The notes beneath the pieces are model-generated. The model was not told the DNA's origin and searched no databases. It saw only the letters and a program-made list of their open reading frames with translations. From the NCBI GenBank assembly GCA_017433295.1, contig JAFRHL010000040.1:1-64000 (forward strand): a stretch of DNA of 64,000 nucleotides, written 5' to 3'. The first letter of the stretch is position 1. Each line of letters begins with the position of its first letter. A program made the position numbers and the translations under genes. Of the stretch, positions 42,484 to 45,179 are shown piece after piece. The DNA comes from Eubacterium sp. Lineage in GTDB: Bacteria > Bacillota > Clostridia > Lachnospirales > Lachnospiraceae.

Positions 42484-43884
42484 ATGATTCCTGTGCCAAA
42501 ATTATTCAGAAAAACAAAAACTGTTAAGGGGATCAACGCCTATATGGATACCACATTTCATGAGGTCCTGCATACGACTTTGAACCCTGACGGACCGGGT
42601 GCTATCCGCATTCATCTGATTCCTCCGAAGAAGGAGGAGAATGCGCTGAACCCCAGCATTGCGATCATTAACGGGGCAGATATCGTTCCGGTCAACTTTG
42701 TCTGGGCGGTGATGCTGGCAGAAATGATCCGCGAGACCAACCAGTATGACGGCAGGGAGATCGGTGAGGAGGAGATACAGTCTATTCTTGACCGGACAGC
42801 AGAAAATGTGAAACAGATCATTCCTGTCCTTTCAAGAAAACGCATTAAGGGTGACATCCGGACTATCTACCAGACCATAAAGCAGATCGCCTACCGGGAA
42901 GAGGTGACGACGGATGTCCATTATATGAGTATCGGTGACTATGCTGAGTACATGAATGCACCCCACCGTATGGACCTGATGGTAAGTGCCATGACAAAGA
43001 AGGGGAAATGGCACTGTAATCAGAAATGTGTCCACTGTTACGCGGCGGACCAGGTCCTTGCCGAGGAGGAGGAGATCTCCACCGGGGAATGGAAGGCAAT
43101 ACTGGACAAATGCCGTGCTGTGGGTATTCCCCAGGTGACATTCACCGGCGGTGAACCGACCATGAGGGACGATCTTTTTGATCTCATAAAACATGCCAGG
43201 TGGTTTATCTCCCGCCTTAACACAAATGGTATAAAGCTGACACAGGAGTACTGCCGCGGGCTTCGCCGGACAGAGCTTGACAGTGTTCAGATCACCTTTT
43301 ATTCCTGGGACCGGCAAGTACATAACCGGCTGGTGGGAGCAGACCAGTATGAGAATACGGTCAGGGGAATTGATAATGCTCTGGCGGAGGGACTTTCCGT
43401 CAGCATAAACACCCCCCTTTGCACCTTGAATAAGGACTATGTAAAGACCCTTGAATTTCTTCATGAAAAGGGTGTGATCTATGTGACCTGCTCCGGCCTG
43501 ATCACCACCGGAAATGCGGTCCGTGAAGCCTCAGAGCAGCTGCAGCTGACAAGTGGGGAGCTTGAAAGCATCCTGCGGGCGTCAGTGGCCTACTGTAATG
43601 AGAACGGTATGGAGCTCGCATTTACTTCCCCGGGATGGATCGGGCAGGAGGTCTTTGACGAACTGAATATTCCGTCACCTTCCTGCGGCGCTTGTTTATC
43701 CAATATGGCCATCACCCCGGGAGGAAATGTCGTTCCCTGTCAGAGCTGGCTTTCTGATGAACCTCTGGGAAACATGCTGAAAGCTGACTGGGAAACCATC
43801 TGGGAGTGCCCGGCCTGTGCCGACAAGAGGAACTATTCATCCGAAATGACGGGTGAGTGCCCTTTGAGGAGGTATTGCCCATGA
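42484..43884 (+). CDS. radical SAM enzyme with SPASM-like C-terminus
   Basis: 466 residues. About 170 residues precede the radical SAM core, whose cluster motif is CNQKCVHC (CxxxCxxC), followed by VTFTGGEPTMRDDLF and LNTNGIKL. The C-terminal part has a second Cys set (SCGACLSN, VPCQSWL, ECPACADKR, GECPLRRYCP) like SPASM/twitch domains that bind extra iron-sulfur clusters and act on peptides. The N-terminal extension may recognise a peptide, but no clear RRE motif is visible. Its stop overlaps the start of the Cys-rich membrane protein by 4 bp, marking that protein as the likely substrate. Confidence 0.88.
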   Translation: MIPVPKLFRKTKTVKGINAYMDTTFHEVLHTTLNPDGPGAIRIHLIPPKKEENALNPSIAIINGADIVPVNFVWAVMLAEMIRETNQYDGREIGEEEIQSILDRTAENVKQIIPVLSRKRIKGDIRTIYQTIKQIAYREEVTTDVHYMSIGDYAEYMNAPHRMDLMVSAMTKKGKWHCNQKCVHCYAADQVLAEEEEISTGEWKAILDKCRAVGIPQVTFTGGEPTMRDDLFDLIKHARWFISRLNTNGIKLTQEYCRGLRRTELDSVQITFYSWDRQVHNRLVGADQYENTVRGIDNALAEGLSVSINTPLCTLNKDYVKTLEFLHEKGVIYVTCSGLITTGNAVREASEQLQLTSGELESILRASVAYCNENGMELAFTSPGWIGQEVFDELNIPSPSCGACLSNMAITPGGNVVPCQSWLSDEPLGNMLKADWETIWECPACADKRNYSSEMTGECPLRRYCP

Positions 43885-45179
43885 TTCGTATAAAGAAAGA
43901 AACCAGCAGATTTATACTATTTGCGGCGGTCCTTCTGGTGATGTTCTTTCTTCCTGCCATCGGGGCCCGGGCCAAAGCCACCGATGAGATAGAGGACATG
44001 ACGATCACCGTGGATGTCAGTGAGGATGCGTCCCTTAAGATGACATATCACATTGACTGGAAGGTCCTTGATGATTCCATCGGCAAGCTGGAATGGATCG
44101 ACCTGGGTGTTCCCAACAGATACCACGAAAACATCACTCCCTTAAGCAAGACGGTCGATCATATCAATGATAAGGGCAGCACCCTGGCCATATATCTTGA
44201 CCGGGCTTATGGCGAGGGTGAGACGGTGGGAATAGATTTTTCCATGACCCAGGACCATATGTATCAGATTGATAAATGGGTTAAGGGTGAGACAGTCTAT
44301 ACATTTACACCCGCCTGGTTTGACTCCATGGAGGTCAAACAGCTGACCATCCGCTGGAATGAGGAAAATGCCGGGGCCTGGCAGCCGGACTGCCTGAATG
44401 AAGCCGGATACCTGACCTTTAAAACATCCCTTCCGGAAGGCGGAAAGTACACCATTTCTGTCACCTATCCCAATGATGCCTTTGCTTTCGCTGCGGACCG
44501 GCAGGCGGGCAGCGGGGACAGCAGTGGAAGTAATTCGGAAGGAGACAATGATTTAAGTGCCGGCGACTGGATACTCGGCATTCTGGGCCTGTTCATTTTC
44601 CTGGGGATCATTGCCTCTCCCTTTATCCTTATTTACAAGTTTATAAGATGGATTCTGGAGGGTATAGGTTTCGGATCAAAGCAGGAGACAAAGAAGAAGA
44701 TCACCCGTACCAAGATCGAGTACTATGAAAGCTGTCCCGGCTGCGGGGCCGCCAGAGAGGAAGGCAAGGACAGCTGTCCCTACTGCGGACGGTCCATGAT
44801 CAAGAGTAAGGAAGTCGTAGAGGAAAACCAGATAGATAATCCGGAGAATTACACGAAAAAGGGTACCTACCGTTACGGGGATTCAGGGAATACCTATATC
44901 CGCGTGAATGTGATCAATGTGCCGGTCAGCCGGCCCCGGCCATCCTCCCGTTCTTCCCGCTCCGGCAGATCCTCTCACCATTCCTCCTGCGCATCATCCT
45001 GCGCATGTGTATCATCCTGCGCCTGCGCGTCCTCCTGTGCCTGCGCCTGTGCCTGTGCCTCGTCGGGCCGTGCGGGATGCTCGGTAAAGGATTTCTTTAA
45101 GGACAGCATCCATAAAAGACGCATCAGGATCGAGAGCAGGGAGACAGAGAACCGTCCCCTGTCTCCTCCTGTCTCCTGA
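43881..45179 (+). CDS. membrane protein with zinc ribbon and Cys-Ala-Ser-rich tail
   Basis: 432 residues; ATG 43881 has GAGGAGG upstream, inside the radical SAM gene. Parts: signal peptide or first anchor (FILFAAVLLVMFFLPAIGARA), an extracytoplasmic DUF2207-like region (30-205), a Ser/Gly/Asp linker, a membrane helix (DWILGILGLFIFLGIIASPF), and a cytoplasmic zinc ribbon (CPGCGAAREEGKDSCPYCG). The end is HHSSCASSCACVSSCACASS followed by CACACAC and GRAGCS: 10 Cys in 31 residues, alternating with Ala and Ser. The tail should face the cytoplasm, where the coupled radical SAM enzyme acts. The last 13 residues (RETENRPLSPPVS) come from an interspersed DNA repeat. Confidence 0.8.
   Translation: MIRIKKETSRFILFAAVLLVMFFLPAIGARAKATDEIEDMTITVDVSEDASLKMTYHIDWKVLDDSIGKLEWIDLGVPNRYHENITPLSKTVDHINDKGSTLAIYLDRAYGEGETVGIDFSMTQDHMYQIDKWVKGETVYTFTPAWFDSMEVKQLTIRWNEENAGAWQPDCLNEAGYLTFKTSLPEGGKYTISVTYPNDAFAFAADRQAGSGDSSGSNSEGDNDLSAGDWILGILGLFIFLGIIASPFILIYKFIRWILEGIGFGSKQETKKKITRTKIEYYESCPGCGAAREEGKDSCPYCGRSMIKSKEVVEENQIDNPENYTKKGTYRYGDSGNTYIRVNVINVPVSRPRPSSRSSRSGRSSHHSSCASSCACVSSCACASSCACACACASSGRAGCSVKDFFKDSIHKRRIRIESRETENRPLSPPVS
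45141..45168 (-). repeat. GAGACAGGGGACGG family repeat, coding copy 1
   Basis: GAGACAGAGAACCGTCCCCT then GTCTC, the reverse complement of the intergenic repeats at 47560, 61736 and 63641. It overlaps the end of the Cys-rich protein gene and supplies its last codons. Confidence 0.7.

Follow-up and report, generated by a model that had tools for sequence, protein, structure and literature searches.

A radical SAM/SPASM enzyme paired with a membrane protein bearing a Cys-Ala tail: a candidate modification system

Introduction

Most knowledge of radical S-adenosylmethionine (SAM) maturases comes from short peptides. Sactisynthases and ranthisynthases link the sulfur of Cys to carbon, and in the sactipeptide maturases, such as SkfB, AlbA and StsB, a radical SAM domain and a SPASM-type region serve a Cys-rich target encoded next door, a short leader-core peptide. 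The SCIFF ranthipeptide system (maturase model TIGR03974) likewise has a radical SAM/SPASM enzyme and an adjacent Cys-rich target, again a small peptide. A protein-sized target is found with QhpD, the radical SAM/SPASM enzyme of quinohemoprotein amine dehydrogenase maturation, which crosslinks Cys in a protein subunit; that subunit is small and exported, in contrast to a membrane protein carrying a Cys-Ala repeat. Another radical SAM/SPASM family, TIGR04133 (rSAM_w_lipo), goes with a lipoprotein by its model name. In PoyD-type systems the carrier is soluble and lacks a Cys-Ala tail. These proteusin epimerases combine a large N-terminal carrier region with alternating-residue processing and hold the SAM cluster only, with no auxiliary clusters (PMC8326336).

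Here we describe a gene pair from a Lachnospiraceae genome (Eubacterium sp., assembly GCA_017433295.1), located in a stretch of 64,000 nucleotides (contig JAFRHL010000040.1, positions 1 to 64,000; hereafter the window). A radical SAM/SPASM enzyme is followed directly by a membrane protein with a Cys-Ala tail, and the sequence evidence makes it likely that the two are a dedicated maturase-substrate pair in which the tail is modified and retained. The enzyme resembles the sactipeptide maturases in its radical SAM and SPASM-type regions, SkfB being its best sequence match in the PDB. However, its proposed target is a membrane protein of about 300 to 500 amino acids (aa), no recognition element (RRE) of the ribosomally synthesized and post-translationally modified peptides (RiPPs) was detected in it, and its scores lie far below the NCBIfam cut-offs. 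The partner can be compared with the DUF2207/LemA/TPM envelope proteins: its outer domain is remotely DUF2207-like, at a sub-threshold level, and TPM and LemA genes lie downstream in one clade; we know of no radical SAM partner for such proteins. In the open-licence literature of PubMed Central (PMC), no paper with both "radical SAM" and "DUF2207" was found, nor was any description of this pair, among the matches listed and by titles and the starts of abstracts.

Results

The gene pair in the window

A preliminary description of the window had noted that a SPASM-like radical SAM gene ends in the start codon of a gene whose product, a membrane protein, has a tail with 10 Cys in 31 residues. Both statements agree with the coordinates. 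The enzyme gene (42484-43884, plus strand, 466 aa) stops with TGA at 43882-43884, and the partner gene (43881-45179, plus strand, 432 aa, stop codon at 45177-45179) starts with ATG at 43881-43883, the two being joined by an ATGA overlap. The tail, residues 370-400 of the partner, has exactly 10 Cys, a density reached by a single stop-to-stop frame of 100 or more residues in the window; the next best has 7 Cys. The features of the pair are as follows.

42484..43884, plus strand: radical SAM/SPASM enzyme, proposed tail maturase (Pfam, NCBIfam and PDB sequence matches)
42484..42978, plus strand: enzyme N-terminal domain, residues 1-165, putative RRE-like substrate-binding domain (profile match to a distant clade)
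43015..43038, plus strand: CxxxCxxC motif of the SAM-binding [4Fe-4S] cluster, C178/C182/C185 (invariant in 26/26 aligned enzymes)
43684..43878, plus strand: reduced SPASM/auxiliary-cluster region, C401/C419/C459 (invariant in 26 aligned enzymes; Pfam)
43881..45179, plus strand: Cys-Ala-tail membrane protein, 432 aa, proposed substrate (kept beside the enzyme)
43881..43970, plus strand: partner N-terminal signal/anchor segment (hydropathy at residues 11-29, 4 K/R before)
43971..44555, plus strand: partner extracytoplasmic domain, remotely DUF2207-like (PF09972 sub-threshold; boundaries by eye)
44571..44627, plus strand: predicted partner transmembrane helix (hydropathy at residues 231-249)
44733..44786, plus strand: partner zinc-ribbon motif CPGC...CPYC (by eye; zinc-ribbon Pfam models in some members)
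44988..45080, plus strand: Cys-Ala-Ser tail, 10 Cys in 31 residues, proposed modification site (sequence and alignment)
45036..45080, plus strand: conserved tail core CACACACASSGRAGC (alignment of 40/40 partners; pS 0.72, pN 0.066)

The enzyme and the tail protein occur together

Among 41 relatives, the partner was found in 10 genomes, and the same genomes hold an orthologous enzyme (at least 471 bits); in that set no other enzyme match scores above 64.5 bits. The close loci are the best 80 of 298 confirmed relatives, one genome per species, and come mostly from metagenome-assembled Lachnospiraceae, Clostridiales or Bacillota of the ruminant gut, by their record titles. In 72 of these 80 loci the enzyme is directly followed by a complete open reading frame (ORF) that encodes the GRAGC tail; of the other 8, six are ended by the contig, one has too little DNA and one (L113) has the tail in another frame. 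The overlap seen in the window is common, in that an in-frame ATG overlaps the enzyme stop codon by one base in 63/80 loci and by four in 13/80.

Wider samples, some of whose genomes are shared between the order, class and phylum levels, gave the same picture. In the order sample of 392 genomes, the enzyme profile matched 13 times, in 10 cases with 639 bits or higher, and the tail profile matched 14 times, its 10 strong matches (E 6.4e-12 or better) falling in the same 10 genomes as the strong enzyme matches; in all nine new loci of this sample the tail ORF lies directly after the enzyme. The three weaker enzyme matches (about 112 bits) had no tail protein, 5 kb flanks included, and were taken as other radical SAM enzymes. 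Four weak tail matches (E 7e-4 to 7e-3) led to no Cys-repeat ORF and were discarded.

An enzyme-only search of the class sample (341 genomes) returned seven genomes besides the window at E 1e-40 or better, from six other GTDB family codes. A complete tail protein adjoins the enzyme in four (G539, G647, G701, G712), among them one (G712) that the class-level tail search did not catch, its tail being present but different after GGGR. In G720 (L197, 4663-7592) three ORFs, of which one has a DDE transposase domain, split the adjacent partner, and the tail is still encoded; the neighboring enzyme ORF in that locus has no internal stop. In G604 and G641 the adjacent gene is ended by the contig and a tail protein is found on another contig, in G641 at its very end. 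The tail protein of G604 (L203, 2952-4211) lies on an enzyme-free contig and has a start different from that of the cut partner in L179, making it a possible paralogue. Of L198 and L199, one contig breaks off within the Gly-rich linker ahead of the tail, and another carries a tail at its very end. Because of such repeats, draft genomes may under-represent the tail.

The same enzyme-only search of the phylum sample (338 genomes) added 11 genomes besides the window, from four further GTDB family codes, with a complete adjacent tail ORF in 10 of the 11 and a contig that stops inside the tail in the last (L217). Taken together, the class and phylum samples have a Cys-Ala tail protein in 18/18 genomes, complete and adjacent in 14, and the pair is retained across 11 GTDB family codes. 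Control loci with other radical SAM enzymes had the tail in 0 of 52 with flanks of about 1.5 kb, which is short for sure capture of a tail, and in 0 of 40 of those 52 (20, 3 and 17/29) with flanks of about 5 kb where the contig allowed. The pair is thus conserved far beyond the genus, a point that the preliminary description had left to be checked, and the tail stands beside the enzyme in every locus whose partner can be read to its end. The frameshifted L113 and the interrupted L197 are the only exceptions to an intact tail in that position, and both still encode it.

The tail core is under purifying selection and follows the enzyme tree

The tail of the window's clade has the form ...SSCACACACASSGRAGCSVKDFF; other forms are CACACACAGGGRAGCSxKDFY, CACACACACACAGGGRVGCSERGY and CACVSCACACVSCACACACAGGGGAGCARKF, and in one clade (4 loci) the form SCACACACACASSGGCT is the exact C-terminus. 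In most clades conserved residues extend past the repeat. The alignments used chosen subsets of 16, 46, 40 and 26 sequences, and in the alignment of 40 partners the last four Cys-Ala units and the GRAGC columns are invariant in 40/40, which makes the tail core the most conserved region of the partner. Indeed, the outer domain falls to about 30% identity while the tail core stays, and identity to the window over the whole partner drops to 29-32% among the 40. The residue spaced after Cys is Ala in 665 of 686 positions, Val in 20 and Thr in 1 (98 tails, 108 loci), in a count whose pattern admits only some residues and so overstates the purity of Ala.

This conservation is at the level of protein. 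When tail codons were anchored on GRAGC alone, 83 of 90 loci gave 83 distinct DNA sequences and 14 protein sequences over 19 codons, with synonymous (pS) and nonsynonymous (pN) values of 0.72 and 0.066; in the other 7 loci, which lack the anchor, the DNA stops before or in the tail. A count with a pattern that fixes most residues gave similar values (80/90 loci, 12 proteins, pS 0.70, pN 0.063). The tail core is under purifying selection. A chance origin or a DNA-repeat artefact is ruled out by the codon analysis, with 83 DNA against 14 protein sequences, and by the radical SAM control loci.

The tail also varies with the enzyme, as the preliminary description had proposed to check. On a tree of 41 enzymes, a chosen subset in which two rows have no tail type, the five tail types need 4 changes, the minimum, compared with a mean of 19.3 when shuffled; tail type follows the enzyme tree. 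The enzyme therefore has what a RiPP maturase has, an adjacent encoded Cys-rich target that varies with it. In one locus (L200, genome G647), two different tail proteins lie upstream of one enzyme and share the tail, one of them with Tyr replacing a repeat Cys.

The enzyme belongs to the SPASM subfamily

The window enzyme is a member of the radical SAM superfamily, SPASM subfamily, by Pfam matches above cut-off to Radical_SAM (PF04055, E 4.8e-19) and SPASM (PF13186, E 1.8e-5, 25.4 bits against a cut-off of 21.5). Six Cys are invariant across 26 aligned enzymes: C178, C182 and C185 of the SAM cluster, and C401, C419 and C459 of the auxiliary region. The auxiliary set is reduced in the window's clade, and the phylum-level clades retain a fuller SPASM pattern, CxxC...CGGxC. 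C336 is invariant among 46 close relatives, not across the 26-enzyme alignment. A defence-system search gave only viperin-like matches to the radical SAM domain of the enzyme.

None of the curated models among the best matches places the enzyme in a named family. Its top NCBIfam match is NirJ2, with 103.7 bits against a cut-off of 500, and none of the 25 best matches reached its cut-off, for the window enzyme or for six distant enzymes; the model TIGR04133 stands at 72.3 bits against 425. No curated model of the sactisynthase or ranthisynthase class was above cut-off among those 25 best matches, and TIGR03974 was not among the 25 best of 55 NCBIfam matches of the window enzyme, so the enzyme does not fall within SCIFF. 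In a profile comparison, the overlap with the SCIFF maturase comprised only a section of the barrel (97%) and a single weak strip of SPASM (16%). The top PDB match by sequence was SkfB (6efn, E 5.8e-8), termed a sactisynthase in the title of PMC6231123.

An N-terminal domain is common to the whole enzyme family. Two distant phylum-level clades are akin in it: that of the first matched the window's at 99.5% (E 4e-23) in a profile comparison, and that of the second matched the first distant clade at 86% (E 5e-6) and the window's directly at 15%. Against the N-terminus of SCIFF maturases the family profile aligned in register, at an insignificant 4.4% probability (E 0.009). PqqD was listed for 4/5 SCIFF maturase N-terminal regions, one above cut-off, a positive control of modest sensitivity.

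The partner is probably an envelope protein

Hydropathy bears out a signal/anchor and a membrane helix in the window partner, with segments at residues 11-29, preceded by 4 K/R, and 231-249, followed by 2 K/R and 1 D/E within 15 residues. In 23/23 partners scanned the tail sits after two hydrophobic segments, and K/R exceed D/E after the second in 19/23. Two other domains were named in the preliminary description. Of the zinc ribbon, the CxxC...CxxC motif is seen by eye at residues 285-302 and two zinc-ribbon Pfam models match 9 and 7 of the 40 family members, but no such model was listed at E<=1 for the window protein itself; the ribbon is missing in four divergent partners of the 40 aligned. 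The DUF2207-like outer domain is a remote likeness, PF09972 being listed at E<=1 in 24/40 members (best 0.0012) but scoring 15.8 bits in the window partner, below the cut-off of 24.4. PF09972 itself was found in 3/41 relatives and not in the window's own genome. NCBIfam gave one match for the window partner, at 11.3 bits against a cut-off of 550, and none for four distant partners.

One phylum-level clade has TPM and LemA genes downstream of the tail gene, TPM by Pfam in L215, L216 and L220 and LemA by Pfam in L215, L218 and L220. In L218 (2367-4439) and L219 (2446-4284, minus strand) a single ORF encodes the tail protein and, after it, a TPM domain (a Pfam match in both), which leaves the tail internal. 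LemA-DUF2207 gene pairs are noted, and a stress and biofilm role is cited for a DUF2207 protein, in a paper on another topic (PMC12631010). Because of the TPM/LemA genes beside it in this clade and these reported gene pairs, the partner is probably an envelope component.

Clustering of ORFs from the 80 closest loci found no conserved third gene of 80 or more aa within up to 4 kb, many loci having less flank than this: the largest clusters were the enzyme (72 loci), the partner (70 loci), two on the reverse strand that overlie these genes (10 and 9 loci) and then one of 6 loci. This argues against a dedicated release protease or exporter in these loci. Distant clades have companions of their own, the TPM and LemA genes in one and, in all three loci of L222-L224, two ORFs that follow the enzyme, with no strong Pfam match in the two that were scanned.

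Discussion

A proposed model for tail maturation

At the level of sequence, the findings on conservation and co-variation support the original proposal that the enzyme and the tail form a modification pair. We propose that insertion of the membrane protein would leave its outer domain on the outside of the cell and place its tail in the cytosol, where the neighboring radical SAM/SPASM enzyme would act on it as a dedicated maturase. Within the (Cys-Ala)n-GG/SS-G-(RA)GC tail, the enzyme would abstract hydrogen from certain residues, and Cys sulfurs would then be joined to nearby backbone or side-chain carbons, most likely as thioether links, each with a mass change of -2 Da, so that the flexible thiol tail would become rigid. 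The tail would persist in the cytosol as a lasting part of the protein, and the role of the leader peptide in RiPPs would be filled by the membrane protein.

The steps of this model differ in strength. That the tail is the enzyme's substrate is highly probable, because the pairing is strict, the tail is conserved beyond the rest of the partner, two tail proteins can share one enzyme, and no other shared partner was found. Retention of the tail is favored with good confidence, in that no conserved protease or exporter was found and the tails of L218 and L219 are internal. Thioether formation is the leading chemistry, given the sulfur-to-carbon bonds that sactisynthases and ranthisynthases form at Cys and the composition of the tail, Cys with small residues; by analogy we advance it tentatively, at somewhat short of an even chance.

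Several points weigh against this model. Known sactipeptides have acceptor residues, and a Cys-Ala tail has no obvious separate acceptor for each Cys. The best NCBIfam scores of the enzyme, all well under the cut-offs, favor peptide maturases no more than NirJ/AhbD/MoaA-type models, and its N-terminal domain has no RRE recognizable by sequence, PqqD being listed in 0/23 and 0/6 members. Direct matching of enzyme and tail would make tail type follow the enzyme tree, but a two-gene block inherited together would co-vary in the same way without direct contact. The tail had been placed on the enzyme's side of the membrane: the excess of K/R agrees with this in the 19 partners mentioned, but the charge rule does not favor a cytosolic tail in the other 4/23, and a third, weaker hydrophobic segment lies before or at the tail in 6/23, in one clade being the Cys-rich repeat itself. 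By predicted topology, tail and enzyme probably share the cytosol, with less certainty in some clades than in others.

Alternative explanations

The main rival to thioether formation is a different chemistry on the same substrate. The enzyme might epimerize alternate residues of the (Cys-Ala)n stretch in the manner of PoyD, giving an alternating L/D strand or beta-helix with all its thiols on one face. The strict C-A-C-A alternation fits this, and radical SAM epimerases also abstract a C-alpha hydrogen, PoyD acting at every 1,3-position according to PMC8326336. The same source gives known epimerases a critical Cys and the proteusin epimerases the SAM cluster only, whereas the enzymes here have no Cys invariant outside the cluster motifs across the 26 aligned, C336 being confined in this respect to the 46 close relatives. 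We consider epimerization improbable. An unmodified tail that binds metal or serves redox chemistry, like a metallothionein, is to our minds no better placed; the enzyme would then make a small molecule or load a cofactor on the same protein. CxC motifs together with a zinc ribbon would suit such a role, and the profile matches of the enzyme include heme and molybdopterin enzymes, but across 40 partners the core varies no more at Ala, Gly and Arg than at Cys, the ribbon is lost where the tail is retained, and the tail co-occurs strictly with the enzyme in the samples.

A slightly weaker case can be made for the partner as a precursor whose cleavage would free a modified Cys-Ala peptide for export as a signal or antimicrobial. 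The products of radical SAM RiPP systems are often released, and the clade of 4 loci whose repeat is the exact C-terminus looks core-peptide-like. We regard this as unlikely all the same, in view of the missing third gene of 80 or more aa in the 80 closest loci, the tails that are internal where the ORF continues into a TPM domain (L218, L219), and the conserved residues beyond the repeat in most clades. Least credible by far is a low-complexity expansion unlinked to the enzyme, in genes that merely travel together. Repeat number does vary, and overlapping genes are inherited as a block, but a near-identical core protein is encoded by DNA that is different in every case, the pair spans 11 GTDB family codes, and the second tail protein of L200 has retained its tail.

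Scope and implications

Modification followed by retention of the tail remains our preferred reading. On its broadest form we are evenly divided: a phylum-wide class of membrane proteins may exist in which a dedicated radical SAM enzyme remodels the cytosolic (Cys-Ala)n tail, leaving a permanent element that is crosslinked or of altered stereochemistry, with the protein never cut to a peptide. If so, radical SAM maturation would extend beyond peptides and include functional parts of envelope proteins. In this pair the probable target is an integral membrane protein, conserved in Lachnospiraceae of the gut and rumen and in lineages of the phylum that are more distant. Its simple repeat poses a clean chemical question, namely how the enzyme acts on Cys-Ala-Cys-Ala, and a repeat of 15-20 residues is a ready test substrate. 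The TPM and LemA genes beside the tail gene offer a possible lead to the function of the little-understood envelope proteins of the DUF2207/LemA/TPM type. Genomes probably carry the pair under generic names, since neither gene was above the cut-off of the NCBIfam models among its best matches.

Searches for mobile carriage gave no plasmid match and no relative on a viral contig. The enzyme (49% identity) and the tail protein are carried by L226 (MT837216.1, 7.4 kb, human faeces), a record labelled "Bacteriophage sp." that may be a mislabelled bacterial contig. The window also encodes SCIFF, as the preliminary description had pointed out: an intact precursor at 57704-57982 matches TIGR03973 with 69.3 bits, and an intact maturase at 58121-59482 matches TIGR03974 with 789.2 bits.

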